This document shows, one piece after another, positions 13,245 through 51,121 of a stretch of DNA of 64,000 nt. Origin of the DNA: Variovorax terrae (lineage in GTDB: Bacteria > Pseudomonadota > Gammaproteobacteria > Burkholderiales > Burkholderiaceae_C); NCBI RefSeq assembly GCF_022809125.1, contig NZ_JALGBI010000001.1, positions 1,426,001-1,490,000 on the forward strand, in the 5' to 3' direction. The notes under the pieces are model-generated. The model searched no databases and was not told the origin of the DNA. It saw only the letters and a list, made by a program, of their open reading frames with translations. Positions within the stretch are counted from its first letter, which is position 1. Each line of letters starts with the position of its first letter. The position numbers and the translations under genes were made by a program.

Positions 13245-16200
13245 CTACAGCTGCCGTGCCAGCAGCTGCGCCACGTGAATGGCTTCGCGCTGCGCGCCGT
13301 CGCGGATCTGGTGCCGGCAACTGGTGCCGTCGGCCACCACGATCGCGTCGGGCCGGGCGCGCACCGCGGGCAGCAGGCTCAGCTCGGCCATCTGCATCGA
13401 CACCTCGTAGTGGCTGGCCTCGTAGCCGAAGCTGCCGGCCATGCCGCAGCAGCTGGACTCGATCAGTTCCGGCTGCGCGCCCGGAATGAGCTTGAGCACC
13501 TCCAGGATCGGGCTGACCGCGCCGAAGGCTTTCTGGTGGCAGTGGCCGTGCAGCAGCACGGGCTGCGTCACGGGCCGCAGCCGCGACTTGAGTGTTTCCA
13601 GCCGGCCGGCGGCTGCCTCGCGCGCCAGAAACTCCTCCAGCAGCAGCGCGTGCCGGGCCACCGTCTGGGCCGCCTCGCCCAGGCCCATCGCCAGCGCCTC
13701 GTCGCGCAGGGTCAGCAGGCAGGAGGGCTCCAGCCCGACGATGGCGATGCCTTTCTCGGCGAAGGGCAGCAGGGCCTCCACCAGTTCGCGCACTCGGGCC
13801 CTGGCCTGGTCGACGCGGCCGCCGGACAGGTCGGTGCGGCCGCAGCACAGCGCCTTGCCGTTTGCTACTTTTTTTGTAGCAACAAATGACGTGTAGCCGC
13901 CGACCTCGAGCACTTTCAAGGCCGAAAATGCGTTGCCGGACTCGAAATGGCCGTTGAAGGTGTCCACGAACAGCACCACGGGCTTGTCGGCGGCCAGCAG
14001 CTCGTCGCGCGTGGCGGTCTTGGGCGGCGCATTGAAGAAGGTTCGCCGCTGCCACTGTGGCAGCGTGCGCCTGGCCGAGAAGCCCAGCAGCTTTTCGCTG
14101 GTCCAGGCCAGGCCGGGCAGGCGGTCGCGCAGGTTCAGCAGCGGAGCCAGCCGGCTGGCCAGGCCAGCGTAGTCGGGCAGGCTGGCGACCAGCCTGTCCT
14201 TGAGCGTGTGGCCGTGCCGCGCCTTGTAGTGGTGCAGGAACTCCACCTTCATCTTCGCCATGTCCACGCCGGTGGGGCAGTCGCGCTTGCAGCCCTTGCA
14301 GCCCACGCACAGGTCCAGGGCCTCGTAGGCGGCCTCGCCGGTGAAGGCCTCGGGGCCGAGCTGCCCGCTGAGCGCCTGGCGCAGCGTGTTGGCGCGTCCG
14401 CGCGTGAGGTGCTTCTCGTCACGCGTGACGCGGTAGCTCGGGCACATGGTGCCGGCGTCGAACTTGCGGCAATGGCCGTTGTTGTTGCACATCTCCACGG
14501 CCTTGGCAAAGCCCTGGGCCGGGTCGCCGCCGGTGCCGGGGGCGGTGGTCTTTTCGGTGGCCGGGTCGTTCTGAACGTTCCAGGCCGACCAGTCGAGCGC
14601 CGTCTGCAGCGGGATCACCCGGTAGCTCGGCGGGAAGCGCATCAGCCGCGTGTCGTCCATCTTCGGCGGGTTGACGATGCGCTGCGGGCTCAGCAGGTTG
14701 ATCGGGTCGAGCCGTTGCTTGATCTCGGCGAAGGCCTGCGTGATCTTCGGCCCGAACTGCCACTCGATCCATTCGCCGCGGCACAGGCCGTCGCCATGCT
14801 CGCCGCTGTAGGCGCCCTTGTATTTTCGCACCAGGGCCGCGGCTTCCTCGGCAATGGCGCGCATCTTGGGCGCGCCGTCGCGCCGCATGTCGAGGATGGG
14901 GCGCACGTGCAGCGTGCCGACGGAGGCGTGGGCATACCAGGTGCCCTTGCTGCCGTGCTTGCGGAACACCTGGGTCAGCGCGTCGGTGTATTCCGCCAGG
15001 TGCTCCAGCGGCACGGCGCAGTCCTCGATGAAACTCACCGGCTTGCCGTCGCCCTTGAGGCTCATCATGATGTTGAGGCCGGCCTTGCGTACCTCCCACA
15101 GGTTCTTCTGCGGGGCGTCGTCGATCATCTCGACCACCGAGCCGGGCAGGCCGAGGTCGCCCATCAGCTCGACCAGCTGCCGTATCTTGGGCGTGATGTC
15201 GGCCTTGGAGGCGCCGGAGAATTCCACCAGCAGCACCGCGTCGGGCTTGCCGCCGTTGATGCGGGGCGACAGCGCGGTGCGGATGGTGGGCGCGAAGGCC
15301 GGGTTCTGCAGCGCCAGCTCGAGCATGGTGCGGTCCACCAGCTCGACCGCGGTGAGCGCGGCGCCGCCCATCTTGACGATGTGCTGCGCCGAGTCCATGG
15401 CCTTGTAGAAGGTGGGGAAGTTCACCACGCCCAGCACCTTCGCGCGCGGCAGCTCGGCCAGGCGCAGCGTGAGCGAGCGGGTCAGCGCCAGCGTGCCCTC
15501 GCTGCCGATCAGCAGGTGGGCGAGGTTGACCGAGCCGTCGGCCGTGTAGGGCTTCTCGTTCTGGTTGCGGAAGATGTCGAGGTTGTAGCCCGCCACGCGG
15601 CGCAGCACCTTGGGCCAGCGCTGCTCGATCTCGGGTGCCAGATCGTCGGCGAGCTGGCGCACGAAGTCCCCGATCTGCCTCGCCGTTCCGCTGCTGTCGT
15701 CATAGCGGCCGAAGCGGTGCGGGCCGCCATCGGACAACCAGGCCGTGGCGCCGAGCACGTTGTGCACCATGTTGCCGTAGGCGATGGAGCGGCTGCCGCA
15801 GGAGTTGTTGCCCGCCATGCCGCCCAGCGTGGCCTGTGCGCTGGTGGATACGTCCACGGGGTACCACAGGCCATGCGGCTTCAGCGCGGTGTTCAGGTGG
15901 TCGAGCACGATGCCGGGCTCCACCTCCACGCTGCGCCGGGCCGCGTCCAGGTCGAGGATCCGGCGCACATGCTTGGCATGGTCGATCACCAGCCCCGCGC
16001 CCACGGTCTGCCCGCACTGGCTGGTGCCGCCGCCGCGGGCGATCACCGGCACCCGCAGATCGCGGCAGATGGCCAGCGCCGTCGCCACCTCGTCGGCGCT
16101 GCGCGGCACGAACACACCGACCGGCATCACCTGGTAGATCGAGGCATCGGTGGCATAGCGGCCGCGGTCGGCCGGCGAGAACAGGACTTCGCCCTGCGTT

Positions 16201-16316
16201 TCGGCGGCCAGCCGCGCGGCCAGGCGGCCCGCGACTTCGTTGCTGGCTTGCGAGACGCGGTCGTAGGCGCGGTCGGCAGTGTCCCGCGCGATCTTCAGGG
16301 GGAGGGGGGCGTTCAT
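13245..16316 (-). CDS. FAD-binding and 4Fe-4S dehydrogenase (GlcD-GlcF-like fusion)
   Basis: A 1023-residue cytoplasmic oxidoreductase of the D-lactate/D-2-hydroxyacid dehydrogenase type. Domains in order: FAD-binding type 4 (about 60-240, with RGGGTSQCGQTVG and GNNSCGSRSI), FAD-oxidase C-terminal (about 290-540), Fe-S region (CNNNGHCRKFDAGTMCPSYR and CVGCKGCKRDCPTGVDM), then two CCG domains (ALCCGRTDLSG and SSCCGMAGSFGYE). Residues VATKKVA (about 812-818), just before the first CCG, are encoded by a perfect 7-bp stem palindrome (see repeat). Next to a GntR regulator; substrate probably a 2-hydroxy acid. Confidence 0.9.
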   Translation of the reverse strand: MNAPLPLKIARDTADRAYDRVSQASNEVAGRLAARLAAETQGEVLFSPADRGRYATDASIYQVMPVGVFVPRSADEVATALAICRDLRVPVIARGGGTSQCGQTVGAGLVIDHAKHVRRILDLDAARRSVEVEPGIVLDHLNTALKPHGLWYPVDVSTSAQATLGGMAGNNSCGSRSIAYGNMVHNVLGATAWLSDGGPHRFGRYDDSSGTARQIGDFVRQLADDLAPEIEQRWPKVLRRVAGYNLDIFRNQNEKPYTADGSVNLAHLLIGSEGTLALTRSLTLRLAELPRAKVLGVVNFPTFYKAMDSAQHIVKMGGAALTAVELVDRTMLELALQNPAFAPTIRTALSPRINGGKPDAVLLVEFSGASKADITPKIRQLVELMGDLGLPGSVVEMIDDAPQKNLWEVRKAGLNIMMSLKGDGKPVSFIEDCAVPLEHLAEYTDALTQVFRKHGSKGTWYAHASVGTLHVRPILDMRRDGAPKMRAIAEEAAALVRKYKGAYSGEHGDGLCRGEWIEWQFGPKITQAFAEIKQRLDPINLLSPQRIVNPPKMDDTRLMRFPPSYRVIPLQTALDWSAWNVQNDPATEKTTAPGTGGDPAQGFAKAVEMCNNNGHCRKFDAGTMCPSYRVTRDEKHLTRGRANTLRQALSGQLGPEAFTGEAAYEALDLCVGCKGCKRDCPTGVDMAKMKVEFLHHYKARHGHTLKDRLVASLPDYAGLASRLAPLLNLRDRLPGLAWTSEKLLGFSARRTLPQWQRRTFFNAPPKTATRDELLAADKPVVLFVDTFNGHFESGNAFSALKVLEVGGYTSFVATKKVANGKALCCGRTDLSGGRVDQARARVRELVEALLPFAEKGIAIVGLEPSCLLTLRDEALAMGLGEAAQTVARHALLLEEFLAREAAAGRLETLKSRLRPVTQPVLLHGHCHQKAFGAVSPILEVLKLIPGAQPELIESSCCGMAGSFGYEASHYEVSMQMAELSLLPAVRARPDAIVVADGTSCRHQIRDGAQREAIHVAQLLARQL
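13862..13882 (-). repeat. dispersed element family 1, copy A (partial, in frame)
   Basis: TTGCTAC-T7-GTAGCAA is a perfect 7-bp inverted repeat inside the dehydrogenase gene. On the coding strand it is preceded by GTCATT, matching the 3' part of the other copies (GGTCAT then TTGCTAT). Only the palindromic end is evident here. It encodes VATKKVA without breaking the frame. Confidence 0.7.
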
Positions 16317-16336
16317 GGGCAGGGGTGGGAGGGGTG

Positions 16337-17026
16337 TCAGGCCTGGGCGGGGGCCGTGTCGTGCGAGGCGCGCAGTTGCGCGACCACCGCCTTGAGCTTG
16401 TTGTCCAGGTGCGAGGCCATCACCGCGCGCATGGCGGCGCCGTCGTGCGCGCTCAGGGCAGCCACCATCTGTTCATGCTCGCGGACCGCATCGCGCCATT
16501 TGCCTTCGTCCTGGTTGGAGCGAAAGCGCAGGGCCTGCAGCCGCGCATTGACCTGGTTGTAGGTGGCGGTGAGCACCGGGTTCTTGGCGGCGGCGTTGAT
16601 CGCGCGGTGGATCAGCGCATTGAGCCGGTAGTAGTTGGAGAGGTCGCGCCGCGTCCAGGCCGCGAGCATCTCGAAATGCATGGCCTTGATCTCGGCCAGC
16701 TCTTCCTCCGTGATGCGCTGCGCCGCGAGTTCACCCGACTGCATTTCCAGCCCGGCCATGACTTCGAAGGTGTTGCGCACGTCCGCCTCGGACAGCTCCA
16801 CCGCGATCGCACCGCGGTTGGGCAGCAGTTCCACCAGGCCTTCGGCCGCCAGCATCTTGATCGCCTCGCGCAGCGGCGTGCGCGAGACCGCGAGCACCTC
16901 GCACAGCTCGCGCTCGTTGAGCTTGGCACCCGGCGCGATGCGGTTTTCCACCAGCATCTGGCGCAGGCGATGCGCCACCTGCTCATGCAGGGCGGCACGT
17001 GGGATGGAAATGATTTCAGCACTCAT
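16337..17026 (-). CDS. GntR family (FCD/FadR subfamily) transcriptional regulator
   Basis: A 229-residue regulator with an N-terminal winged helix (LNERELCEVLAVSRTPLREAI) and an FCD effector domain (EVMAGLEMQSGELAA, then HRAINAAAKN) of the metal-binding type. An upstream in-frame start is possible, but ATG at 17026 starts the usual N-terminus. It is divergent from the aminotransferase gene, and the 113-base gap holds two TTGTATNCAA sites. It probably represses the flanking metabolic genes until their substrate appears. Confidence 0.9.
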   Translation of the reverse strand: MSAEIISIPRAALHEQVAHRLRQMLVENRIAPGAKLNERELCEVLAVSRTPLREAIKMLAAEGLVELLPNRGAIAVELSEADVRNTFEVMAGLEMQSGELAAQRITEEELAEIKAMHFEMLAAWTRRDLSNYYRLNALIHRAINAAAKNPVLTATYNQVNARLQALRFRSNQDEGKWRDAVREHEQMVAALSAHDGAAMRAVMASHLDNKLKAVVAQLRASHDTAPAQA

Positions 17027-17034
17027 GCGGAGAA

Positions 17035-17107
17035 TTGTATTCAAAATTTCTTCAAAGAAATGCAAATTTCAGAGATAAAAAATTTGACAAATGAATTTTG
17101 TATGCAA
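17035..17107. promoter_or_regulatory. paired TTGTATNCAA operators and AT-rich divergent promoter
   Basis: TTGTATTCAA (17035-17044) and TTGTATGCAA (17098-17107; within the longer palindrome TTTTG-TATG-CAAAA) flank an AT-rich block with a TTGACA box at 17084-17089. The sites are the only clear palindromes in the gap between the GntR regulator and the aminotransferase, and resemble known FCD-type operators. Binding is inferred. Confidence 0.7.
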
Positions 17108-17139
17108 AAATCTCCAAAAATTCACGAAAGGACCCTGAC

Positions 17140-18360
17140 ATGCTGACGCTCGACTTCCATCCCACGGGACGCCATTTCCTGCAGATTCCGGGGCCCTCGC
17201 CGGTGCCCGACCGCATCCTGCGCGCGATGAGCCTGCCCACCATCGACCACCGCGGCCCGGAGTTCGGCGCGCTCGGCCTCAAGGTGCTCGCAGGCATCCG
17301 CCAGATCTTCCAGACCCGGCATCCGGTCGTGATCTATCCGGCCTCGGGCACCGGGGCCTGGGAGGCCGCGCTCGCCAACACGCTGAGCCCGGGCGACTCT
17401 GTGCTGATGTTCGAGACGGGGCATTTCGCCTCGCTGTGGAACCGGATGGCCACGCGCCTGGGCCTGAAGCCCGAGTTCCTGGGCCTGCCCGGCGCCGAAG
17501 GCTGGCGCCACGGCGTGCAGGCCGGCATGATCGAAGAGCGCCTGAAGGCCGATACGCAGCACGCCATCAAGGCCGTGTGCGTGGTGCACAACGAAACCTC
17601 CACCGGCGTGACCAGCGACATCGCCGCCGTGCGCCGCGCCATCGACGCCGCGAAGCACCCCGCGCTGCTGCTGGTGGACACCATCTCGGGCCTGGCCTCC
17701 GCCGACTACCGCCATGACGAGTGGGGCGTGGACGTCACCGTGAGCGGTTCGCAGAAGGGCCTGATGCTGCCGCCGGGCATCAGCTTCAACGCCGTTTCGC
17801 CCAAGGCCCTCGAAGCCAGCCGAACGGCGCGCCTGCCCAAGGCGTTCTGGGCCTGGGACGAGATCATCGAGATGAACCAGACCGGCTACTGGCCCTACAC
17901 GCCCAACACCAACCTGTTGTACGGCCTGAACGAGGCCTGCGACATGCTGCTGAGCCAGGGGCTGGACACGGTGTTCGCGCGCCACCGGCGCTGGGGCGAG
18001 GGCGTGCGCGCGGCGGTGCGGGCCTGGGGCCTGGAGATCCAGTGCGCCGACCCGGCGCTGTACTCACCCGTGCTCACCGGCGTGATGATGCCCGAGGGGG
18101 TGGACGCCGATGCCGTGCGCAAGATCGTCTACGAGCGCTTCGACTGCTCGCTGGGCACAGGCCTGGGTAAGGTCCGGGGCCGCATGTTCCGCATCGGCCA
18201 CCTGGGCGACTGCAACGACCTCACGCTGATGGCTGCGCTGGCCGGCTGCGAGATGGGCTTCCGTCTGGCAGGCGTGAAGCTCGCGGGCTCGGGCGTGCAG
18301 GCGGCGATGGATTACTTCGCCGGCCATCCGGCGAGCCTGGACCTGCGCCGCGCGGCGTGA
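17140..18360 (+). CDS. serine-glyoxylate type pyridoxal-phosphate aminotransferase
   Basis: A 406-residue class V aminotransferase. The PLP lysine is in VSGSQKGLMLPPGISF; IPGPSPVPDRILRAM and PASGTGAWEAAL are family hallmarks, as is RMFRIGHLGDCNDLTLM near the C-terminus. The start at 17140 has AAAGGA upstream and matches the family N-terminus. Likely serine:glyoxylate or alanine:glyoxylate activity; the donor is not certain. Controlled probably by the divergent GntR regulator. Confidence 0.9.
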   Translation: MLTLDFHPTGRHFLQIPGPSPVPDRILRAMSLPTIDHRGPEFGALGLKVLAGIRQIFQTRHPVVIYPASGTGAWEAALANTLSPGDSVLMFETGHFASLWNRMATRLGLKPEFLGLPGAEGWRHGVQAGMIEERLKADTQHAIKAVCVVHNETSTGVTSDIAAVRRAIDAAKHPALLLVDTISGLASADYRHDEWGVDVTVSGSQKGLMLPPGISFNAVSPKALEASRTARLPKAFWAWDEIIEMNQTGYWPYTPNTNLLYGLNEACDMLLSQGLDTVFARHRRWGEGVRAAVRAWGLEIQCADPALYSPVLTGVMMPEGVDADAVRKIVYERFDCSLGTGLGKVRGRMFRIGHLGDCNDLTLMAALAGCEMGFRLAGVKLAGSGVQAAMDYFAGHPASLDLRRAA

Positions 18361-18367
18361 GCCGGGT

Positions 18368-18432
18368 GCTATTGATTTCGTAGCGTTCCGTCACCGCCTG
18401 GCCTGGACCTCCGGGCGGTTTTATTCAAAAAC
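18368..18432 (-). repeat. dispersed element family 1, copy B (also a terminator)
   Basis: GCTA-N9-TAGC at one end and TTATTCAAAAAC at the other, with GGACCTCC between. It aligns along its length with copy C inside the P450 gene. It starts eight bases after the aminotransferase stop codon. Its ACCGCC...GGCGGTTTTATT part forms an intrinsic-terminator-like hairpin on the plus strand. Confidence 0.8.
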
Positions 18433-18444
18433 AGGAGACAAACC

Positions 18445-19422: not shown

Positions 19423-19425
19423 GGG

Positions 19426-19968: not shown

Positions 19969-20005
19969 TTGCTTCTTCTTGAAGTGAAAACTCCTGGAGG
20001 CAGGC

Positions 20006-20034
20006 ACAAAAAAACCCGCCTCGTGGGGCGGGTT
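20006..20034 (-). terminator. intrinsic terminator ahead of the P-loop kinase gene
   Basis: A perfect 8-bp stem (AACCCGCC / GGCGGGTT) with a six-base loop, followed on the minus strand by seven T. It lies after the TraB-like gene and before the kinase gene, so it either ends the former's transcript or acts as an attenuator for the latter. Confidence 0.85.
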
Positions 20035-20057
20035 GTGATGGCTGCTCAGCCGGCGTC

Positions 20058-20114
20058 CTAACCCACCATTCGTTGAATGGCACGAATCAGGGTGTTGGGC
20101 GACGAGCAGATCAT
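20058..20114 (-). other. possible 18-codon leader peptide frame before the terminator
   Basis: ATG to TAG frame reading MICSSPNTLIRAIQRMVG, ending 24 bases before the terminator stem. CCATTC-AAC-GAATGG forms a second hairpin inside it. No good ribosome site is visible. It could be an attenuator leader, part of a small RNA, or chance. Confidence 0.25.
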
Positions 20115-20144
20115 GGGGAAGATGCTAACAGATGGCTGCAGCGC

Positions 20145-26633: not shown

Positions 26634-27719
26634 ATGCCTGCCCCTCTTCATGCACTCGACGCGGTCACGCACCCCGACCCGTACCCGTTCTACCAGCAAC
26701 TGCGCCGGCAGCCGCCGCTGCACTTCGACACGCACAACCGCCTGTGGATCGCCAGCCGCGCCGAGGTGGTGGCCGAGGCCTTCGCCCACCCGGCCCTGCG
26801 CGTGCGGCCGCCGCAGGAGCCCGTGCCCCGCGCGCTGGCGGGCACGGCGGCGCGCGAGGTCTTCGCGCTGCTGGTGCGCATGAACGACGGCGCCTTCCAT
26901 GCGCAGCACCGGCCTGCGGTGGCTGCCGCGGCAGCGCGCTGGAGCCTGCCGCAGGTGCACGAGGCCAGCCGCGCGGCGGTGCCGGCCTTGCGCGAGGCGC
27001 TGGACGTGAACGACTTTCTCACGGCGCTGCCGGTCGCCGTGATGGCCAGGCTGCTGGGCGTGCCCACGGCACAGCAGGGCCTGACCGTGCAGTGGGTGCA
27101 CGACTTCACGCGCGGCATCGCGCCGGGGGCGTCCGCCGAAGCGGTGGCGCAGGGCGTTGCGGCCGCGCAGCACCTGATGGCGCAGGGCCAGGCTCTGGGC
27201 CTGGATCGCGTGCAGGCGGCCAACCGGGTGGCCCTGATGCAGCAGTCGCTGGACGCGACGGCGGGCCTGCTGGGCAACACCGCCTGCCTGCTGCGCCAGC
27301 AGCCCGGCCTGGGCGAAACGCTCGCGGCATCGATGGACCAGGCCCGGCTTCTGGTGGCCGAGGTGGCGCGCTGGGATGCGCCGGTGCAGAACACTCGGCG
27401 CTACGCGGCGCAGGACACGGTGCTGGCCGGCCAGCCGCTGCGCCAGGGCGAGGGCGTGCTGCTGGTGGTGGCCAGCGCCAACCGCGATGAAGCGCTGAAC
27501 CCGCAGCCCGAACGCTTCGAGGCGCAGCGCGCCCACCGCCGCAGCTTCACCTTCGGCGCGGCGGCGCATGCTTGCCCGGGGGAGGCGATTGCTATCGAAA
27601 TCGTAGCGTCCTGCGTCCAGCTGGACTGGACCTCCGGCGGTTTTGATTCATTTTTCGGGCGTTGCACGGGCTACCGGCCGCTGTCCAACGTGCGCATCCC
27701 GGTTTTTTCTGTCGATTGA
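26634..27719 (+). CDS. cytochrome P450 (short, with repeat-derived C-terminal segment)
   Basis: A 361-residue P450, shorter than the usual 400. It has the K-helix EVARW, and the heme loop FTFGAAAHACPGEAIA, with the ligand Cys at about residue 314. The I-helix acid/Thr pair is only loosely seen (SLDATAG). From about residue 319 to 341, right after the heme Cys, the protein is encoded by a dispersed repeat (copy C), which replaces most of the expected L-helix. It is followed by a monooxygenase-like gene. Activity uncertain. Confidence 0.85.
   Translation: MPAPLHALDAVTHPDPYPFYQQLRRQPPLHFDTHNRLWIASRAEVVAEAFAHPALRVRPPQEPVPRALAGTAAREVFALLVRMNDGAFHAQHRPAVAAAAARWSLPQVHEASRAAVPALREALDVNDFLTALPVAVMARLLGVPTAQQGLTVQWVHDFTRGIAPGASAEAVAQGVAAAQHLMAQGQALGLDRVQAANRVALMQQSLDATAGLLGNTACLLRQQPGLGETLAASMDQARLLVAEVARWDAPVQNTRRYAAQDTVLAGQPLRQGEGVLLVVASANRDEALNPQPERFEAQRAHRRSFTFGAAAHACPGEAIAIEIVASCVQLDWTSGGFDSFFGRCTGYRPLSNVRIPVFSVD
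27589..27657 (-). repeat. dispersed element family 1, copy C (in frame in P450)
   Basis: GCTATCGAAATCGTAGC followed by GGACCTCCGGCGG and TTTTGATTCATTTTT. It aligns with copy B over its whole length. It is read in frame on the plus strand, opposite to its consensus orientation, encoding about 23 residues after the heme-ligand loop. Confidence 0.85.
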
Positions 27720-34916: not shown

Positions 34917-35777
34917 ATGTCGACTCGCAAGCAACTCAAATCCCTGGCCGAGGCCCGCCGCGGCGTGCTGGTGCCCGGCGCGTTCAACGCGCTGTCGGCC
35001 AAGGTCATCGAAGACCTCGGTTTCGAGGCGATCTACATCACCGGCGCCGGCGTCACCAACATGTGGTTCGGCCTGCCCGACCAGGGCTTCATGGGCCTGG
35101 CCGAGATCGCCGACCACACGGCACGCATCCGCGACGCCGTGGCCCTGCCGCTGATCGTGGACGCCGACACCGGCTTCGGCAACGCGCTCAACGTGCGCCA
35201 CACGGTGCGCACGCTGGAGCGCGCCGGCGCCGACTGCATCCAGTTCGAGGACCAGGTGGCGCCCAAGCGCTGCGGCCATTTCTCGGGCAAGGAAGTCATC
35301 TCCACCGAGGAGGCGGTGAGCAAGATCAAGGCCGCCGCCGATGCGCGCCAGGACGCCGACCTGCTCATCATGGCGCGCACCGACGCCGCCGCCGTGCACG
35401 GCTTCGAGGCCGCCGTCGAGCGCGCGCAAAAGTTCAGCGAAGCCGGCGCCGACATCCTGTTCGTCGAGGCCGTGACCACGGCCGACGAAATCCGAGCGCT
35501 GCCGCAGCGCCTGCGCAAACCCCAGCTCATGAACATGGTGATCGGCGGCAGGACGCCGATCTTCAGCGCCGAAGAACTGGGTGGCCTGGGCTACGGCATC
35601 GTGCTGTATGCCAACGCGGCGCTGCAGGGCGCCGTGGCCGGCATGAGCAAGGCGCTGACCGTGCTGCGCGACACGAAACGCCTGGACGAAGACCCGGCGC
35701 TGGTCACGCCCTTCGCCGAGCGCCAGCGGCTGGTGGGCAAGCCCGAGTGGGATGCGCTGGAGCGCCGCTACACCTGA
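34917..35777 (+). CDS. isocitrate lyase/PEP mutase superfamily lyase (PrpB-like)
   Basis: A 286-residue carboxy-lyase. VPGAFNALSAKVIEDLGFEA, DADTGFGNALNVRHTVRTLE, FEDQVAPKRCGHFSGKEV and MARTDAAAVHGF are superfamily signatures; the catalytic loop KRCGH is intact. It could be 2-methylisocitrate lyase, or a related lyase for 2,3-dimethylmalate or oxaloacetate. The first is favoured by acnD and prpF upstream, yet the sequence differs from classical PrpB in several places. A dispersed repeat starts at its stop codon. Confidence 0.85.
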   Translation: MSTRKQLKSLAEARRGVLVPGAFNALSAKVIEDLGFEAIYITGAGVTNMWFGLPDQGFMGLAEIADHTARIRDAVALPLIVDADTGFGNALNVRHTVRTLERAGADCIQFEDQVAPKRCGHFSGKEVISTEEAVSKIKAAADARQDADLLIMARTDAAAVHGFEAAVERAQKFSEAGADILFVEAVTTADEIRALPQRLRKPQLMNMVIGGRTPIFSAEELGGLGYGIVLYANAALQGAVAGMSKALTVLRDTKRLDEDPALVTPFAERQRLVGKPEWDALERRYT

Positions 35778-35842
35778 ATTTGAAGGAAAATAGGCCCGAT
35801 GTCCGCGTCGGGTGGTCATCTGTTGCTATTGAAAATATAGCA
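35778..35842 (+). repeat. dispersed element family 1, copy D
   Basis: AATTTGAAGGAAAATAGGCC, then GTCC, GGTCATCTG and GCTATTGAAAATATAGC: the consensus order of the family. It begins on the base after the stop codon of the lyase gene. The terminal inverted repeat GCTAT-N7-ATAGC (35825-35841) is perfect. Confidence 0.85.
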
Positions 35843-35942
35843 TTCTGGGTGCCAACCCGGGTCTGTGCCTGGTCTGGCCGAAGGAGCAGGGGAGGTTTTC
35901 GCATGACGTCCCTGCATCGCGCCGGGCCGCGGCCGCGCGCCG

Positions 35943-39792: not shown

Positions 39793-39973
39793 ATAGGTGT
39801 CTGCAAGTGCCACCGGACCGGCATCCTGAACCGGGGGTTCAGGTGGGCGAGGGCAACCTGACGTTGGGTTCATCTGACGCGAGACGATCACGCTCATCAG
39901 GTGATGTACCAAGCCCGGGCTCTAAGAGCATTGGTTCAAGGAAATATAAAGCCCGGCGTGCACTGCAGACGCC
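39793..39973 (-). ncRNA. ssrS: 6S RNA
   Basis: A transcript of about 181 bases whose ends pair: 5' GGCGTCTGCAGTGC-ACGCCGG with 3' CCGGTGGCACTTGCAGACACC, leaving one long irregular hairpin as in 6S RNA, which binds sigma70 polymerase. CCTTGAACC follows the 5' stem and GGTTCAGG precedes the 3' stem. A TACAAT box ends at 39977, just before the start. Location after zapA is the standard place in beta- and gammaproteobacteria. Identified by structure and context. Confidence 0.8.
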
Positions 39974-40028
39974 TCCATTGTAGGCGCTCGGGACGCCACG
40001 CGAAGGCGGGGCCGGCGCGATGGCGCAG

Positions 40029-40600: not shown

Positions 40601-40654
40601 ACAGTGTTTGATTGTAGGGTTTGTGACAGATTTCAACTTAGAATCAGCGCTGTT

Positions 40655-40857
40655 GGTGCTCGCGGTGTGGTTCACATGCCGCAGTTCAACGGGAAGCAGG
40701 AGAGAGAGCCCGTCCAGGGCCGACCCAACCTGCGCTGCCCCCGCAACGGTCAAGCGGACGAATCGCCTGATTCCGTTTCCATCATCCAGCCACTGGGCGT
40801 CCTGAACAAGCGCCTGGGAAGGCGATGGGAATCGCTCCGCCAGCCCGGATACCGGCC
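40655..40857 (+). promoter_or_regulatory. cobalamin (B12) riboswitch
   Basis: The adenosylcobalamin aptamer is clear: GTTCAACGGGAAGCAGG near 40684, the B12 box core TGCGCTGCCCCCGCAACGG near 40731-40749, CCACTGGGCGT near 40790 and the closing CAGCCCGGATACCGGCC (40841-40857). It lies ahead of btuB and the cobalamin cluster, so B12 should switch them off. A TAGAAT box at 40639 could be the promoter. Confidence 0.93.
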
Positions 40858-40865
40858 AACAAGGT

Positions 40866-40899
40866 GGCCGCACGTCCTCTCGCGAGAGAGGCGGCGGCC
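40866..40899 (+). terminator. riboswitch expression-platform hairpin
   Basis: Nested stem GGCCGC / GCGGCC (40866-40871 with 40894-40899) enclosing CCTCTC-GCGA-GAGAGG, just after the aptamer. The run of T after it is short (two), so it may block translation or act as a weak terminator rather than a classical one. Confidence 0.6.
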
Positions 40900-42905: not shown

Positions 42906-42911
42906 TGTGGC

Positions 42912-44258: not shown

Positions 44259-45067
44259 GCACGGCCAGCCTGGGCCCGCAGCGCATCGTCTGCCTCACGG
44301 AAGAGACCACCGAGTGGCTCTACCTGCTGGGCGAAGAGCGCCGCATCGTCGGCATCTCGGGCTACACCGTGCGGCCGCGCCGCGCGCGCGACGAGAAGCC
44401 CAAGGTCAGCGCCTTCCTGAGCGCCAAGATCGACAAGATCCTGGCGCTGGAGCCCGATTGCGTGTTCGGTTTTTCGGACCTGCAGGCCGACATCGCGAGC
44501 CAGCTCATCCGCCACGGGGTGCAGGTCACGGTGTTCAACCAGCGCAGCGTGGCGCAGATCTTCTCCATGCTGTACCAGGTGGCGGCCATGGTGGGCCAGG
44601 CCGAACAGGGGCTGGCGCGCATCGCGGCCCTGCAGGCGCGGCTGGACGCCATCCGCATGGCGGCCGCAACTCTGCCGCGCCGCCCGCGCGTGTTCTTCGA
44701 GGAGTGGGACGAGCCGCACATCAGCGCCATCGCCTGGGTCTCGGAGCTGCTGGGCATCGCCGGCGGCGACGACTGCTTTCCCGAACTCGCGCGCGAGCCC
44801 CTGGGCAAGCAGCGCATCATCGCCGACGGTGCCGAGATCGTGCGGCGCAACCCCGACATCATCATTGGCTCCTGGTGCGGCAAGAAGTTCCGGCCCGAGA
44901 AGGTGGCGGCACGCGCGGGCTGGCAGGACGTGGCCGCGGTCCGGCACGGCGAGCTGCACGAGATCAAGTCGGCCGACATCCTGCAGCCCGGCCCGGCTGC
45001 GCTGAGCGACGGCGTGGAGCAACTGCACCGTATCGTCGTGGACTGGAGCGACAGGCATGGACGCTGA
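44255..45067 (+). CDS. BtuF-like corrinoid-binding protein without signal peptide
   Basis: A 270-residue ABC-type periplasmic-binding-fold protein (RIVCLTEETTEWLYLLGEERR, ILALEPDCVFGFSDLQADIA, FFEEWDEPHISAIAWVSELLG, DIIIGSWCGKKFRP). It matches cobalamin-binding BtuF relatives but has no signal peptide or lipobox, so it should stay in the cytoplasm. A second, secreted btuF follows at 45653. It overlaps cobB and cobU by four and eleven bases. It may bind or hand over a corrinoid inside the cell; that is inference. Confidence 0.82.
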   Translation: MSTASLGPQRIVCLTEETTEWLYLLGEERRIVGISGYTVRPRRARDEKPKVSAFLSAKIDKILALEPDCVFGFSDLQADIASQLIRHGVQVTVFNQRSVAQIFSMLYQVAAMVGQAEQGLARIAALQARLDAIRMAAATLPRRPRVFFEEWDEPHISAIAWVSELLGIAGGDDCFPELAREPLGKQRIIADGAEIVRRNPDIIIGSWCGKKFRPEKVAARAGWQDVAAVRHGELHEIKSADILQPGPAALSDGVEQLHRIVVDWSDRHGR

Positions 45068-45656
45068 GCGCGCCGTCGTCCGCAGCGAACTGGTCCTTGG
45101 CGGCCAGCGCAGCGGCAAGTCGCGCCGCGCCGAAGAGCTGGCGGCCGCCTGGCTCGCGCAGTCGCCCGTGCACCGCGCCGTGTTCATCGCCACGGCGCAG
45201 CCCTGGGACGCCGAGATACGCGAGCGCATCGCGCGCCATCGCCAGGACCGGGCCGAGCGCCTGCCCGGTATGGCCACGGTGGAGGCGCCGCTGCATCTGG
45301 CCGAGGCGCTGCGCGAGCACAGCCGCGCCGACACGCTGGTGCTGGTGGACTGCCTCACGCTCTGGCTCACCAATTGGCTGATGCCGGCCGGCGAGGGCGC
45401 AGATTTTGAATCAAATCGGCCGCAGGTCCAGGCGCAGCGGTCATCGGTTGCTATGTTTTTGGAAGCAATCGGCGCGGCCGCCGGCCCCGTGGTGCTGGTC
45501 AGCAACGAGATCGGGCTGGGCGTGGTGCCACTCGGGCGCGAGGTGCGGGCCTACGTCGATGCATTGGGCCGGCTCAACCAGGACGTGGCGCAGCGCTGCG
45601 CGCGCGTGACCTTGATGGCGGCCGGACTGCCGCTCACACTGAAGGACGAGGCATGA
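45057..45656 (+). CDS. cobU: bifunctional adenosylcobinamide kinase/guanylyltransferase
   Basis: A 199-residue enzyme that phosphorylates and then guanylates adenosylcobinamide. P-loop LVLGGQRSGKSRRAEELAA, FIATAQPWDAEIRERIARH (His guanylylation region), LVDCLTLWLTNWLMP and VSNEIGLGVVPLGREVR are standard. Between the last two, residues about 116-138 (DFESNRPQVQAQRSSVAMF) are encoded by dispersed element copy E. Active-site motifs are intact, so the insert is probably tolerated in a surface helix region. ATGA overlap with btuF. Confidence 0.93.
   Translation: MDAERAVVRSELVLGGQRSGKSRRAEELAAAWLAQSPVHRAVFIATAQPWDAEIRERIARHRQDRAERLPGMATVEAPLHLAEALREHSRADTLVLVDCLTLWLTNWLMPAGEGADFESNRPQVQAQRSSVAMFLEAIGAAAGPVVLVSNEIGLGVVPLGREVRAYVDALGRLNQDVAQRCARVTLMAAGLPLTLKDEA
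45402..45470 (+). repeat. dispersed element family 1, copy E (in frame in cobU)
   Basis: GATTTTGAATCAAATCGGCC, then GGTCCAG, GGTCATCGGTTGCTAT and GGAAGCAATC. Full-length and in consensus orientation, this is the clearest copy. The terminal inverted repeat is TTGCT...AGCAA. It is read through in frame. Confidence 0.88.
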
Positions 45657-46537
45657 TCGCAAGACCCCGGCGGCTGGCCTGGACGGTGCTGCTGCTGTTG
45701 CTGGGCGCAGCCCTGCGCGCGCAGGCGCTGGAGGTGACCGACGACCGCGGCGTGACCGTGCGCTTCGAGCGCGCGCCGCAGCGCATCGTGAGCGTGCTGC
45801 CCTCGCTGACCGAGACCGTGTGCGAACTCGGCGCCTGTGCGCGCCTGGTGGGCGTGGACCGCTACTCCAACCACCCGGCCTCGGTGCGCGCGCTGCCCCA
45901 GGTGGGCGGCGGCATCGACCCCAACATCGAGGCCATCGTCGCGCTCAAGCCCGATCTGGTGCTGATGGCCACCTCCTCGCGCGGCGCACAGCGGCTGGAG
46001 GCGCTGGGCCTCAAGGTGGTGGCGCTCGAACCCAAGAGTGGCGCCGACGTGCGGCGCGTGCTCGGCAAGGTCGGCCAGGTGCTGGACGTGCCCGACGCCC
46101 AGCGCGTGTGGCGCGTGATCGACGCCAGCGTCTCGGCCGCGGCGCAGTCGCTGCCGCCCGAGGTGCGCCGGCTGCGCGTGTACTACGAGGTCAGCCGCGG
46201 CCCCTATGGCGCGGGCGAGAGCTCGTTCATCGGCGAGATCATGACGCGCCTGGGCGTGCGCAACATCGTGCCGCCCGAGCTCGGGCCGTTTCCCAAGCTC
46301 AACCCCGAGTTCGTGGTGCGTGCCAACCCCGACCTCATCATGATCGGCGAGCGCAACGCGCAAGGCCTCGCCCAGCGCCCGGGCTGGGGCGGCATCCGCG
46401 CGATCCGCGAGCAGCGCGTCTGCGTCTTCACGGCCGAGCAGTCCGACGTGCTGGTGCGGCCCGGCCCGCGCATGGCCGAGTCCGCACGCATCATGGCGCG
46501 CTGCCTGCAGGACAAGGGCGGAGCCCGGGCGCCATGA
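45653..46537 (+). CDS. btuF: cobalamin ABC transporter periplasmic binding protein
   Basis: A 294-residue protein with a clear signal peptide (cut near ALRAQA, residue 25). Binding-fold motifs RIVSVLPSLTETVCELG, VGVDRYSNHPASVRALPQVGGG and ALKPDLVLMATSS define BtuF. It delivers corrinoid to BtuCD. It overlaps cobU (ATGA at 45653) and btuC (ATGA at 46534). Confidence 0.93.
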   Translation: MIARPRRLAWTVLLLLLGAALRAQALEVTDDRGVTVRFERAPQRIVSVLPSLTETVCELGACARLVGVDRYSNHPASVRALPQVGGGIDPNIEAIVALKPDLVLMATSSRGAQRLEALGLKVVALEPKSGADVRRVLGKVGQVLDVPDAQRVWRVIDASVSAAAQSLPPEVRRLRVYYEVSRGPYGAGESSFIGEIMTRLGVRNIVPPELGPFPKLNPEFVVRANPDLIMIGERNAQGLAQRPGWGGIRAIREQRVCVFTAEQSDVLVRPGPRMAESARIMARCLQDKGGARAP

Positions 46538-47571
46538 CGCACCGCACGGCCCCGGCCGACATCGTCCATGCCTCGGCGCGCCGCGCATGGGCCCTGGCGC
46601 TGGCGCTGCTGGCGCTCGGCGGCGCCCTGCTGATGCTGGGCGCGGGCATCGGCAGCACCGGCTTCGAAAGCGTGCTGCGCGCCCGGCACGACCCGGTGGC
46701 CTGGCAGATCGTCTGGGACATCCGGCTGCCGCGCACGCTGGGCGCCTGGGTGGCCGGCGCGCTGCTGGGGCTGGCGGGCGCAGTGGCGCAGGGGCTGTTC
46801 CGCAACCCGCTGGCCGATCCCTTCCTGCTGGGCAGCGCCTCGGGGGCCACCCTGGGCGTGGCCGTGGCGCTCGCGCTGTTCGGCGTCTCGCCGTTCGCCA
46901 TGCAGTGGCTGGTGCGGCTCGAACTCACGGGCGCGGCCTTCCTGGGCGCGGTGGCCGGCGTGGTGCTCACGCTCACGCTCGCCAAGGGCGTGCAGCACAC
47001 GCTGCGGCTGCTGCTGGCCGGCGTGATCGTGGGCTTCGTGCTGGGCGCCATCAAGGACCTGGTGGCGCTGAGCGTGCCCGACATCCTGCAGGCGCTGCAG
47101 GGCTTCATGCTGGGCAGCACCGGCTTCGTCGGCTGGGAGGGCTGCCTGCTGATGCTGGCGACCTGGCTGGCCTGCAGCGTCGCGGGCTGGGTGCTCAGCC
47201 CCGTGCTCGACGGCCTGACGCTGGGCGAGGCCACCGCGCGCAGCCTGGGCCTGCCGCTGGCGCGCCTGCGCGTGGCGCTGGTGGTGGTGCTGGCGCTGGC
47301 CACCGGCACCGCGGTGGCGCAGACCGGGCTGGTGGGCTTCGTCGGCCTGGCGGCGCCGCACCTGGTGCGCTCCATCGTCAAGACCACGCATGACCGCCTG
47401 CTGCTGCTCAGCGGCCTGATGGGCGGACTGCTGCTGATGGCGGCCGATCTGCTGTCGCGCTGGCTGATCGCGCCCCAGGAGCTGCCCGTGGGCGTGCTCA
47501 CGGCCGTGCTCGGCGGCAGCTACCTGCTGTGGCTCATGCACCGGCGCGGCCGCGGGGGGGCGCTGCTGTGA
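46534..47571 (+). CDS. btuC: cobalamin ABC transporter permease (FecCD family)
   Basis: A 345-residue permease with about ten helices. IRLPRTLGAWVAGALLGLAGAVAQGLFRNPLADP is split over the family's first signature (RLPRTLGAWVAGALLGLAG and FRNPLADPFLLGSASGA). GLVGFVGLAAPHLVR carries the EAA-like loop that contacts the ATPase. It overlaps the stop of btuF and the GTG start of btuD. Confidence 0.93.
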   Translation: MTHRTAPADIVHASARRAWALALALLALGGALLMLGAGIGSTGFESVLRARHDPVAWQIVWDIRLPRTLGAWVAGALLGLAGAVAQGLFRNPLADPFLLGSASGATLGVAVALALFGVSPFAMQWLVRLELTGAAFLGAVAGVVLTLTLAKGVQHTLRLLLAGVIVGFVLGAIKDLVALSVPDILQALQGFMLGSTGFVGWEGCLLMLATWLACSVAGWVLSPVLDGLTLGEATARSLGLPLARLRVALVVVLALATGTAVAQTGLVGFVGLAAPHLVRSIVKTTHDRLLLLSGLMGGLLLMAADLLSRWLIAPQELPVGVLTAVLGGSYLLWLMHRRGRGGALL

Positions 47572-48335
47572 GGCCGCCCGCCCTCCAGGCCCGCGGCCTG
47601 CGCGCCTCGCTCGGCCAGGCCGAGGTGCTGCACGGCATCGACCTGGACCTGCCCGCGGGCCGCTGGAGCTGCATCGTCGGCCCCAACGGGGCGGGCAAGT
47701 CGACCCTGCTCAAGGCCCTGGCCGGCCTGCTGCCGCACCACGGCGAGGTGGCGCTGCTCGGCCAGCCGCTGGCCGCGCTGCCGGCGCGCCGGCGTGCGCG
47801 CCAGCTCGCCTGGCTGGGCCAGAACGAAGGCTCGGCCGAGGACCTCACGGCCTACGACGTGGCCATGCTCGGCCGCCTGCCGCACCAGCCCTGGCTGGCC
47901 GCGCCCAGCGCCGCCGACCGCGCCGCCGTGGAGCGCGCGCTGCGCACCACCCAGGCCTGGGACTGGCGCGCCCGGCCGCTGGGCCAGCTCTCGGGCGGCG
48001 AGCGCCAGCGCGTGCTGCTGGCGCGCGCGCTGGCGGTCGAGGCCGAGGTGCTGCTGATGGACGAGCCGCTGGCCAACCTCGACCCGCCGCACCAGGCCGA
48101 CTGGCTGCTCACGGTGCGCGCGCTGGTGGCCGAGGGCCGCACCGTGGTCAGCGTGCTGCACGAAAGCTCGCTGGCGCTGCAGGCCGATGAGATGGTCATC
48201 ATGGCGGCGGGCCGCGTCGTGCACCAGGGCGCCTGCGCCGATGCGGCCACGCACCGCGCGCTCGAAGCCGTGTTCGACCAGCGCCTGGCCGTGCGCCGCG
48301 TCGACGACCACTGGGTGGCTTTACCGCGCCCCTGA
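47568..48335 (+). CDS. btuD: cobalamin ABC transporter ATP-binding protein
   Basis: A 255-residue ATPase with Walker [15 protein letters not shown], signature [16 protein letters not shown], Walker [13 protein letters not shown] and H-loop VLHESSLAL. The start is taken as GTG at 47568, overlapping the btuC stop (GTGA), which gives the normal N-terminus; the frame is open further back. Together with btuF and btuC it forms the inner-membrane B12 importer. Confidence 0.92.
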
Positions 48336-48357
48336 GACACCTTCCAAGGATTTCCCC

Positions 48358-48927
48358 ATGCAGATCGAAACCCCGCCCAGCACCAAGCCCTACGAGAAGC
48401 CGGAAGGCGAGCGCCGCGGCCTAGTCATCGTCAACACCGGCGACGGCAAGGGCAAGAGCACGGCCGCCTTTGGCCTCGCGCTGCGCGCCCATGGCCGCGG
48501 CAAGGCCGTGAAGATCTACCAGTTCATGAAGGTGCCCACGGCGCGCTTCGGCGAGCACCGCATGTTCGAGCAGATCGGCATCCCGATCGAGGGGCTGGGC
48601 GACGGCTTTTCGTGGAAGAGCCAGGACCTGGAGCACTCGGCTCAGCTCGCGCGCGACGGCTGGCAGAAGGCGCGCGCCACCATCCTGGGCGGCGCGCATT
48701 TCCTGGTGGTGCTCGACGAGATCACCTACCCGCTGATCTACGGCTGGCTGCCCCTGGATGAGGTGCTGGCCACGCTGCGCGAGCGGCCCAAAGATGTGCA
48801 CGTGGTGCTGACCGGCCGGCGCTGCCCGCCCGAGATCATCGAGCTGGCCGACACGGTGACCGAGATGACCAAGATCAAGCATGCCTTCAACGCCGGCATC
48901 CCGGCGCAGCGCGGCATCGAGGACTGA
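48358..48927 (+). CDS. cobO: corrinoid adenosyltransferase
   Basis: A 189-residue CobA/CobO-type enzyme that transfers the adenosyl group of ATP to cob(I)alamin. P-loop [19 protein letters not shown], then [35 protein letters not shown] and [20 protein letters not shown]. Full length. It starts 22 bases after btuD behind CCAAGGA. Confidence 0.95.
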
Positions 48928-48959
48928 TACGGCATCATGCGGGATCGGAGGCCTTGCAC

Positions 48960-50156
48960 ATGATGACGCTTGAACTCGATAGTGCCTGGACGCTGGTGGC
49001 GGCACTGGCCACGATCCTGCTGGGCCAGCGCCTCAACCGCGCGCTGCCCGCGCTGGAGCGCGCCAGCATCCCGCCCGCGGTGACGGCGGGCCTGCTGCTG
49101 TCGGTGCTGCTGGCCGTGCTGCGTGCGGGCGGGGTGCTCGACCTGCGCCTCTCCACCGTGCCGCGCGACGTGCTGCTACTGGTGTTCTTTTCGTCGCTCG
49201 GCTTCGGCGCGCACCTCGGCCGGCTGGCCACGGCCGGCAAGGGGGCGCTGGTGATCTGCCTCGCCATCGTGCTGGTGGCCCTGGGCCAGAACCTGGTGGG
49301 CGCTGCGCTCGCACGCGCCTTCGGCGAGCCGGCGGCGATGGGCCTGTTCATCGGCAGCGCCGCCTACCTGGGCGGGCATGGCACCGCCACCGCCTGGGCC
49401 GGTGTGCCGCAGGTCGCGGGCCTGGCCGGCGTGCTGGAGGTGGGCTTGGGCAGCGCCACGCTGGGCCTGGTGCTGGGCGGCCTGGTGGCCGGCCCGGTGG
49501 CGGCCTGGCTGGCCCGGCGCAGCCAGGGCGGGGCGGGGCCGGCCGAGGCGGCCGCGCCGGGGGCCGATGAGGCGCCCCCGCGCGAATCGCCGTTCTCCTC
49601 CGACCGCTGGCTGCTGCCGCTGCTGTGCCTGACGGCCTGCGTGGCGGTGGGCCCGCTGCTGCGCGAGGCGCTGGCGGCCACAGGCCTGCAGGTGCCGGGC
49701 TTCCTGACGGTGCTGCTCTCGGCTGTGCTGCTCACCAATCTGGCGGACGCGCTGCGCAAGCCGTTCGACACCGAGGCGACCGATCTCGTCGGCACGCTGG
49801 CGCTGCGCCTGTTCCTGGCTATTGCCATGCTCTCGCTCGACTGGGTGGCGCTGGCGGCCCAGTTGCCGCTGCTGCTGACGGGTGCCGTGGCGCAGACGCT
49901 GCTCACCGTGGCGGTGGGGCTGCTCGTGGTCTACACGCTGTTCGGGCGCGGCCGCGACGGCGCGGCGGCCTGCGGCGGCTTCATCGGCTTCAGCCTCGGC
50001 GCCATGCCGGTCGGGCTGGCGGTGATGCGCCGCCTGAACACCAAGGTCGGCGAGACGCCGCGCGCGCTGCTGGCCATCACGCTGGCGGCATCGCTGTTCA
50101 CCGACACCGCCAACGCCCTCATCCTGACCACGCTGCTGCGCTGGTTCGGGCCATGA
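48960..50156 (+). CDS. GltS-like sodium/glutamate symporter
   Basis: A 398-residue membrane protein with about ten helices of the GltS family: ASIPPAVTAGLLLSVLLAVL, LLLVFFSSLGFGAHLGRLA, AAYLGGHGTATAWAGVP and GFIGFSLGAMPVGLAVMRRL. The start at 48960 has GGAGG upstream; TTG at 48954 and ATG at 48963 are alternatives. It is coupled to cbiB (ATGA at 50153), which is odd for a glutamate transporter; it may carry another substrate linked to B12 assembly, such as an amino acid or aminopropanol source. That is inference. Confidence 0.87.
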   Translation: MMTLELDSAWTLVAALATILLGQRLNRALPALERASIPPAVTAGLLLSVLLAVLRAGGVLDLRLSTVPRDVLLLVFFSSLGFGAHLGRLATAGKGALVICLAIVLVALGQNLVGAALARAFGEPAAMGLFIGSAAYLGGHGTATAWAGVPQVAGLAGVLEVGLGSATLGLVLGGLVAGPVAAWLARRSQGGAGPAEAAAPGADEAPPRESPFSSDRWLLPLLCLTACVAVGPLLREALAATGLQVPGFLTVLLSAVLLTNLADALRKPFDTEATDLVGTLALRLFLAIAMLSLDWVALAAQLPLLLTGAVAQTLLTVAVGLLVVYTLFGRGRDGAAACGGFIGFSLGAMPVGLAVMRRLNTKVGETPRALLAITLAASLFTDTANALILTTLLRWFGP

Positions 50157-51121
50157 ACGCGGCGCTCATGGCGTCCGGCCTGGCCGTGGCCCTGCTCATC
50201 GATCGCCTGCTGGGCGAACCGCCGGCCCGGCTGCACCCGGTGGTGGGCATGGGCCGCTACCTGGGCTGGATCGGCGGGCTCATCACCGCGCGGCAGCATC
50301 CACAGCGGGAGCCGGCGCCCGACTGGCGCGCCTTCGGTGCCGGTGCGCTGGCCTGGTGCGCCGGCGCGGCGCTGGTGGGCGGGCTGGCCTGGCTGGCCCA
50401 GCAGGCCATGGCCGGGCTGCCGCTGGTGGCGGGCGGGCTGCTGCTGGGCTGTCTGCTCAAGCCGCTGCTGGCGTGGCGCATGCTGCGCGACGAGGTGGCG
50501 GCGGTGGAGGCGGCGCTGCAGCAGTCGCTGGCGGCCGGACGCGAGCGGCTGTCGTGGCTGGTGAGCCGCGACACGACCCAGCTCAATGAGAGCGCGGTGC
50601 GCGAAAGCGCCATCGAGTCGCTGGCCGAGAACCTCAACGACTCGGTGGTGGCGCCAATCTTCTGGTTCGTGCTGCTGGGGCTGCCGGGCGCCGCGGTCTA
50701 CCGTTTCGCCAACACCGCCGACGCCATGTGGGGCTACCGCGGCGTGTACCGCGGGCGCAATTGGGAGTGGGCCGGCAAGTGGGCTGCGCGCGCCGACGAT
50801 GCGCTGTCGTGGCTGCCGGCGCGCCTCACGGCGCTGCTGCTCAAGGGGCTGAGCCGCGGTCTGCCGCTGCAGGCGCTGCGCCGCGAGGCGGCCCGCACGC
50901 CGTCGCCCAACAGCGGCTGGCCAATGGCCGCCATGGCGCTGAAGCTCGGCGTCTGCCTGCGCAAGCCCGGCGTCTATGCGCTGAACGCCGCCGGACGGGC
51001 GCCGCAGGCCGCCGACACGGCCCAGGCGCTGATTTATGCATCAAAAGCGGTTTATGTCCAGGTGCTGTGGTCGTTTCTAGCTATTGTTTTGATAGCGATG
51101 GAAGGCTCATGGCTGCGCTGA
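50153..51121 (+). CDS. cbiB: adenosylcobinamide-phosphate synthase
   Basis: A 322-residue membrane protein that attaches aminopropanol (phosphate) to adenosylcobyric acid. LLIDRLLGEPPARLHPVVGMGRYL, VSRDTTQLNESAVRESAIESLAEN-type core and FANTADAMWGYRGVYRGRNW-type motif are standard. The C-terminus from about residue 293 to 314 (YASKAVYVQVLWSFLAIVL) is encoded by dispersed element copy F and forms what looks like a final membrane helix. cobC starts inside its last 13 bases. Confidence 0.92.
   Translation: MNAALMASGLAVALLIDRLLGEPPARLHPVVGMGRYLGWIGGLITARQHPQREPAPDWRAFGAGALAWCAGAALVGGLAWLAQQAMAGLPLVAGGLLLGCLLKPLLAWRMLRDEVAAVEAALQQSLAAGRERLSWLVSRDTTQLNESAVRESAIESLAENLNDSVVAPIFWFVLLGLPGAAVYRFANTADAMWGYRGVYRGRNWEWAGKWAARADDALSWLPARLTALLLKGLSRGLPLQALRREAARTPSPNSGWPMAAMALKLGVCLRKPGVYALNAAGRAPQAADTAQALIYASKAVYVQVLWSFLAIVLIAMEGSWLR
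51031..51096 (+). repeat. dispersed element family 1, copy F (in frame in cbiB)
   Basis: GATTTATGCATCAAAAGCGG, then GTCCAGG, GGTCGTTTCTAGCTATTG and TTTTGATAGC. The terminal inverted repeat GCTAT-N7-ATAGC (51080-51096) is perfect. It supplies the last residues of CbiB and lies just before the cobC start. Confidence 0.85.

Follow-up and report, generated by a model that had tools for sequence, protein, structure and literature searches.

A dispersed three-block DNA motif of about 70 bp with genome-specific cores in Variovorax terrae and related bacteria

We analysed a dispersed DNA motif of about 70 bp in a 64-kb stretch of the Variovorax terrae genome (G000:C1:1426001-1490000, referred to here as the window; G000 is this genome, 4.93 Mb on five contigs). 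An earlier note on the same DNA had described six dispersed copies in the window, and all six places hold the motif, with the copies at 13862, 18368 and 27589 on the minus strand (Table 1). Its placement of four copies within genes was also borne out; those in the FAD-linked oxidase, CobU and CbiB genes are read in sense and the one in the P450 gene antisense. Two copies had been said to start just after a stop codon. Of these, that at 18362 is 2 bp away from the preceding stop, and that at 35774 itself supplies the stop.

Table 1. The six motif copies and two RNA features of the window
Feature	Position	Strand	Context	Model
Motif, weak copy	13858..13931	-	read in sense in FAD-linked oxidase/CCG protein (13245-16316, -)	R1, 31.0 bits; R2, 29.8 bits
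Motif	18362..18435	-	fills gap between aminotransferase gene (ends 18360) and TctC gene (starts 18445)	R1
Motif	27585..27658	-	antisense in P450-like gene (26634-27719, +)	R1
Motif	35774..35847	+	its CTGA gives the stop codon of PEP-mutase-like gene (34917-35777)	R1
Motif	45399..45472	+	read in sense in CobU (45057-45656), residues 115-139	R1
Motif	51029..51102	+	read in sense near C-terminus of CbiB/CobD (50153-51121)	R1
6S RNA gene	39794-39974	-		
Cobalamin riboswitch	40637-40874	+	ahead of the cobalamin region holding the CobU and CbiB copies	

Copy number and anatomy of the motif

In order to find further copies, a covariance model (R1) was built from five of the window copies, leaving out the weak one at 13862. 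Under this model the omitted copy scored lowest, at 31.0 bits, and the five training copies scored 71.9-82.9 bits; the CobU copy had the highest score of the genome among the matches listed. At E<=0.01, R1 matched 56 times in a contiguous 464 kb of G000; genome-wide it gave at least 150 matches, the weakest listed having an E-value of 1.7e-6. A refined, gap-tolerant model (R2), searched at E<=0.05 against the 464 kb and a further locus (L051), gave 73 matches. Thirteen of these cover the 3′ part alone, 12 of them facing an already listed copy on the opposite strand, so that 60 copies remain. A fixed-width position weight matrix (PWM) with a 30-bit cut found 62 clean copies in the 464 kb, which extrapolates to about 660 per genome; reversed sequence gave 0-1 hits per genome. 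By the R1 matches and the reversed-sequence PWM controls, the motif as a whole is far commoner than chance would give. The profile search thus recovered many further copies in this genome, and the earlier estimate of hundreds per genome agrees with the at least 150 matches of R1 and with the extrapolation.

The motif consists of three blocks at fixed spacing over about 70 bp: TTTnGAnTCAAA, a core of ~30 bp and GCTAT-N7-ATAGC. Despite the gap tolerance of R2, 58 of its 60 copies are exactly 82 model bases long, with the conserved blocks spanning about 70. Aligned with R1, 56/56 copies have the same length from GTCC through the last TAG, and the part to the left of this stretch varies by a few bases. 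No gap occurs over the 70 columns of an alignment of 37 copies (20 genomes, 15 genera), all of which an ungapped matrix had excised at fixed width. The core tends to dyad symmetry, and the G+C content of the R1 matches is 42-66%. The letters that the note gave as shared recur in part: the ends are found throughout, but TTTGAATCAAA is exact solely in the copy at 45405, and GCTAT-N7-ATAGC is exact in two of the six window copies, with one or two mismatches in the other four. Searched alone, the latter pattern was found 12 times against a mean of 9.64 in shuffled sequence, not above chance. In the P450 copy, the GCTAT/ATAGC part falls in the segment after what we take to be the haem cysteine motif.

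The arms of the GCTAT hairpin were paired in 92.1% of cases compared with 92.8% in shuffles. Since the arms show no covariation, the motif looks to us like a word of DNA and not like a stem formed in RNA. A role as an RNA hairpin or terminator was rejected, there being no covariation to uphold the stem and folding being no better than in shuffles for four of five window copies; the exception was the 35773 copy (z -1.83, 7 of 200 shuffles as good). A three-helix RNA structure was likewise rejected, its observed measures being reached by 52 to 256 of 500 shuffles. No Rfam match was found at the motif copies.

Distribution and genome dialects

A dialect-blind sequence model (R3) was run on 250 genomes of the family and matched 94 of them: 60 with at least 20 matches, 10 with 12-19 and 24 with 1-4, leaving 156 with none. 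The first two groups make up 70 motif-rich genomes, to be compared with the other 180. Among 300 genomes of the order, eight matched. The five with at least 16 matches all belong to the same family, and three from other families had 1-2. R1, which is tied to the G000 dialect, matched 37 of the 250 family genomes and, over the genus, no genome besides G000. An exact-pattern scan of named genomes gave 0 loci with a first pattern and 13 with a looser one, in Ottowia, two Polaromonas metagenome-assembled genomes (MAGs), a MAG called Ramlibacter and two MAGs without a genus. Since the named carriers include Ottowia and Polaromonas, the carrier family would be Comamonadaceae in the usual naming, and the presence of the motif in related Comamonadaceae, for which the earlier note had proposed a profile search, is borne out by the R3 matches. 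One motif copy was seen on an IMG/VR contig classed as viral (L085, 1246-1298).

We then compared G000 with two related carriers, G072 and G163. In 400-kb stretches of these, an iterated PWM gave 89 hits in G072 (0 in reversed sequence) and 46 in G163 (1 reversed); at its own cut, G000 gave 98 hits and 1 in the reversed control. After cleaning, 62 copies remained in G000, 83 in G072 and 41 in G163. Their consensus cores are GGCCGGAgGTCCAGGTgcgGcGGTCaT in G000, GGCCTCCAGCGCTTGCCgGgCAAGCGC in G072 and GGCTGGAGTCCAgGcCgGGCGGGCAC in G163. In a core-blind test, copies were found with the core masked and the fit of each was scored leaving out the copy itself. This search found 61, 74 and 41 copies, respectively, and 0 positions in reversed sequence. 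The core of the copy's own genome fitted best in 56/61, 73/74 and 36/41 cases (165 of 176 together). At 20 shared site pairs, comprising 36 distinct copies, the own core was favoured in 40/40 copy comparisons, one of them by 0.1 bit; here the copies had been detected with own-genome matrices, which favours the outcome, and CobU was counted three times and one G000 copy twice.

Core identity was 0.35/0.51/0.41 for orthologous copies, 0.35/0.47/0.42 for random cross-genome pairs and 0.57-0.62 within genomes; the ends of orthologous copies were identical at 0.54, 0.71 and 0.50. Because the cores of orthologous copies are about as alike as random cross-genome cores and nearly all copies prefer the core of their own genome, what is inherited is the position, whereas the core goes with the genome. 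With the 73-base CobU copy of a further genome, G212, as query, 41 matches were obtained in G212, 35 in G189, 40 in G072 and 16 in G221 among the matches listed, 2 in G012 and none in G000, G163 or G044.

Matches to the G072 dialect were also seen in a protein family. On NZ_KJ588780.1 and NZ_KY913898.1 (L156 and L157), a match at ~1500 lies in or across DUF1010 (PF06231) frames of class 1 integron cassettes on Achromobacter and Klebsiella plasmids. Five strong DUF1010 matches stand on one strand within 3.3 kb of G072 (G072:C1:3315969-3319288), with the cassette-like spacing of a putative chromosomal integron, and residues 1 to about 23 of DUF1010 have many weak matches in G072, G212, G189 and G221. 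DUF1010 seems to consist of translated motif in its N-terminal third, so that part of this protein family may represent a DNA motif mistaken for coding sequence.

Shared places and the origin of in-gene copies

Copies lay wholly inside genes in 32 of 62 cases in G000, 15 of 83 in G072 and 13 of 41 in G163; in the R1 set for the 464 kb of G000, 27 of 56 copies were wholly inside called genes. Most of the copies outside genes were within 100 bp of a 3′ end (26/30, 59/68 and 20/28, respectively), and divergent gaps held 2, 2 and 5. The in-gene copies use mostly one sense and one antisense frame. Host genes include those for DXR, NAD-dependent DNA ligase (via the G072 orthologue), CobU and DapE. 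A gene at 128283 of the 464-kb stretch, first taken for a glycosyltransferase, matches TrmH/SpoU-type rRNA methyltransferases instead.

The CobU site was surveyed in 30 loci, that of G000 and the next 29 by similarity, out of 155 genomes with a match. The motif was present in 27 of the 30 (26 of the 29 besides G000), always in frame 0, with scores for the ends only of 21.6-47.4; the top score in 2.5 million null positions was 20.3. It was missing in L104, L109 and L112. In all 27 occupied loci the motif window starts 87 bases before a conserved GP, and the loop ahead of it varies in length. The earlier note had named orthologues outside the family with the same residues at the same place as an observation that would count against its reading; the DNA-level search for orthologues was confined to the family, and there the CobU site is occupied at the same place. 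In ten pairs of orthologous genes from the three stretches, both members hold an in-gene copy, at an offset of 0 residues in nine pairs (three of these being CobU pairs) and of -55 in one. The copy in the FAD-linked oxidase has a counterpart at the same residue in the G163 orthologue. That in CbiB/CobD has one at the same residue in the G072 orthologue; in the G163 orthologue the copy is absent and the alignment is gapped there.

To examine how in-gene copies arose, they were compared with genes lacking them. The region of the DXR copy (L033:15051-15124) aligns gap-free to the solved DXR 1t1r, which we take to be the E. coli enzyme. This copy was outside the R1 training set and scored 58.7 bits with R1; with the G000 PWM, which includes it, it scored 84 bits compared with -21 for the G163 orthologue. 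Twelve in-gene copies were set against orthologues without a called clean copy. Of these 13 comparisons nine were ungapped, with a mean score of 51 for the copy versus -18 for the orthologue. In the ungapped comparisons residue identity was 0.57 inside the motif versus 0.73 over the gene. By protein comparison, residues 318-341 of the P450 have the same length in 116 of 119 homologues and are one shorter in three. Intergenic spacers with and without a copy differed in nine pairs by 42, -19, 1, 202, 2, 45, 291, -12 and -38 bp, with a median of +2. Insertions with clean junctions, sought in orthologues and spacers, were mostly not found. We consider it very likely that the in-gene copies are mostly not insertions and that they represent a signal formed in place, with dialects.

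Several observations weigh against an origin in place. Four of the 13 comparisons were gapped (two with CbiB, one with the gene at 109609 and one with a truncated gene call). Three of the nine ungapped orthologues keep weak traces of the motif (own-dialect scores of 26, 17 and 12), and one of the nine pairs is just 38% identical. The intergenic differences include +202, +291, +42 and +45 bp. Relative to solved homologues, ~13 residues are added in CobU and ~12 in DapE, in the site or next to it; a small insertion may thus have started some sites.

The earlier note had likened the copies to Rickettsia palindromic elements, which insert in frame and add a peptide to proteins. The hundreds of copies, their presence in related Comamonadaceae and their partial translation stand; the mobile insertion is not supported. 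Rickettsia palindromic elements also lie in frame in probably working proteins, according to the passages available from PMC3733652, and the restriction of in-gene copies mostly to one sense and one antisense frame and the extra residues in CobU and DapE would suit such an insertion. In contrast to those elements, the motif is mostly without insertion, has places common to several genera and comes in dialects. There is no net insertion at most tested sites, DXR and P450 included, and in other genera the orthologues carry copies at matching residues. An element of this type is extremely improbable.

A mobile palindromic element of the family ancestor, since absorbed by proteins and homogenised into dialects by gene conversion, would account for the places common to several genera, for the homogenisation within genomes and for the extra residues in CobU and DapE. 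It would not explain why no residues are added in DXR relative to a distant solved homologue, or in P450 relative to 116 of 119 homologues, nor why intergenic lengths are unchanged in median. No clean copies start less than 527 bp apart, and gene conversion over 70-bp tracts at such divergence seems unlikely. We regard this origin as improbable.

Elements of the repetitive extragenic palindromic (REP) type, moved by RAYT, a Y1 transposase, have palindromic parts, are often intergenic and reach many copies, as does the motif. The motif differs from them in being longer, frequent in genes and not tied to RAYT, and in evolving in place, which argues against insertion. A Y1_Tnp gene was found in 59 of the 70 motif-rich genomes versus 102 of the 180 others (p 3e-5), and G000 has one. 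Against a mover of this kind, 11 of the 70 motif-rich genomes have no Y1_Tnp at E<=1e-6 (two of the 11 being only 70-74% complete), and no motif copy occurs in the 3.3-kb locus around the RAYT gene of G000. RAYT was rejected as the mover, being associated with motif richness yet apparently not required, and a REP-type origin is very improbable. The RAYT-type gene of G000 (G000:C2:424512-424838, in L051) is the sole Y1_Tnp gene found there at E<=0.001, with GGGTCAGATT-like letters directly before it. In the motif-rich genome G015 there are at least 16 Y1_Tnp matches, partly broken copies, in an IS200-type expansion.

Known systems and candidate explanations

Two patterns in print may be fragments of the motif. 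PMC5217627 lists, in the text available to us, GCTTAT(N)5AAGCG with 114 copies in Acidovorax ebreus and ATAGCT(N)22CAAAAG with 125 copies in Polaromonas naphthalenivorans among ‘potential novel motifs’. The first occurred five times in the 400-kb stretch of G072, each time inside a motif copy, and 0 times in the G000 and G163 stretches; it is very probably part of the core of one dialect. The second occurred 0 times in all three stretches. The pairs of that study are, like the motif, mostly intergenic and near gene ends; in the same portion of the paper they are short fragments, and the full element, dialects, shared places and evolution within genes do not appear. The BRE of Bordetella, 75-91 bp long and dispersed, is also given for Polaromonas, Rhodoferax and Delftia, among others, with some copies in genes (PMC3110155, available part). 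BRE shares its size and some hosts with the motif and may be identical to it, as far as comparison by description rather than by letters can tell. It differs, in what that source states, in forming tandem arrays of varying number with an average G+C of 69% in Bordetella, whereas copies of the motif start at least 527 bp apart and have 42-66% G+C. Among titles and the beginnings of abstracts, and in passages of PMC3733652 and PMC2755013, no description of the full element or its dialects was found.

The arrangement of the copies would also suit a chromosome-organising or nucleoid-protein site, or another platform for several dimers, selected place by place, with dialects that co-evolve with the binding protein and no role in uptake. 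Three partly palindromic blocks at fixed spacing (exactly 82 bases in 58 of 60 R2 copies) are consistent with such a site, and nucleoid binding accounts equally well for the dyads and the spacing, though less readily for a core that changes across the whole genome. No clear polarity was seen within the 400-464 kb stretches, where strand counts were 37/25, 42/41 and 23/18. The coefficient of variation of the spacing between copies was 0.77-0.86, and Kolmogorov-Smirnov p-values of 0.107, 0.018 and 0.853 indicate slight over-regularity in one of the three stretches. On the other side, changing a core of ~30 bp at hundreds of singly selected sites would take very many substitutions, and copies within the genes of conserved enzymes should carry a cost. 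We know of no candidate protein, and we consider this explanation rather unlikely.

Our best model, offered tentatively and with somewhat less than even confidence, is a recognition signal that molecular drive has spread in place, with DNA uptake or self-recognition behind it. A sequence-specific DNA-binding system would favour alleles that match the current dialect. Native DNA would be drawn towards the motif on the spot, wherever the encoded proteins allow, mostly in one sense and one antisense frame and at the 3′ ends of genes. As the taste of the binder drifted, the sites would follow and the dialect would change. Biased uptake together with recombination would act as the molecular drive, as with the DNA uptake sequences (DUS) of the Neisseriaceae and the uptake signal sequences (USS) of the Pasteurellaceae. 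That uptake in particular is the driver we hold at best with the same reserve. Still more guardedly, we suggest a new class of signal: a rigid three-block DNA word of ~70 bp, set into native genes and their ends at hundreds of sites in Comamonadaceae, ancestral at many of them and rewritten genome-wide in its core as lineages diverge, read by a putative multi-subunit DNA-binding machine that drives its spread.

DUS and USS occur in coding DNA and at gene ends, as the motif does here. The features found here that resemble them are dispersal with dialects and, apart from CobU, DapE and the four gapped comparisons, an origin in place. Like the motif, they are genome-wide, on both strands and in lineage dialects uniform within a genome, as described for the DUS in the part of PMC3630211 available to us. 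They are 10-12 bp long in thousands of copies, compared with about 70 bp in three blocks and hundreds of copies here, and the motif dialects differ in most of the core. A ComP_DUS-type pilin (PF16732) was found in 16/16 family genomes tested and in 0/14 controls.

The model of uptake-driven spread also has points against it. The motif is at least 5 times longer than DUS and several times rarer per kb. Among the 176 core-blind copies, 11 do not have the core of their own genome as the best fit. The ComP_DUS pilin does not discriminate between carriers and others, as it is present in G007, G013 and G030, which have zero R3 matches, and in G075 and G098, which are outside the 94 matching genomes. 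Since motif-poor genomes have the pilin too, it neither proves nor excludes uptake. No paper was found that treats uptake sequences in Comamonadaceae. In the three stretches, copies were not enriched in genes with a reciprocal best hit, a weak proxy for core genes (Fisher p 0.68, 0.37 and 0.39), unlike DUS, for which accumulation in the core genome is reported (PMC3630211, available part).

If the model of a signal spread in place by uptake is true, much of the family bears an identity tag throughout its genomes, which we found in print just as unexplained motif fragments. Long multi-block signals could then spread in place in coding DNA and switch dialect in concert, and the origin and change of uptake-type signals would become testable in many environmental genera. 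Residue differences in DXR, NAD-dependent DNA ligase, CobU and DapE may reflect the DNA signal and not the enzyme.

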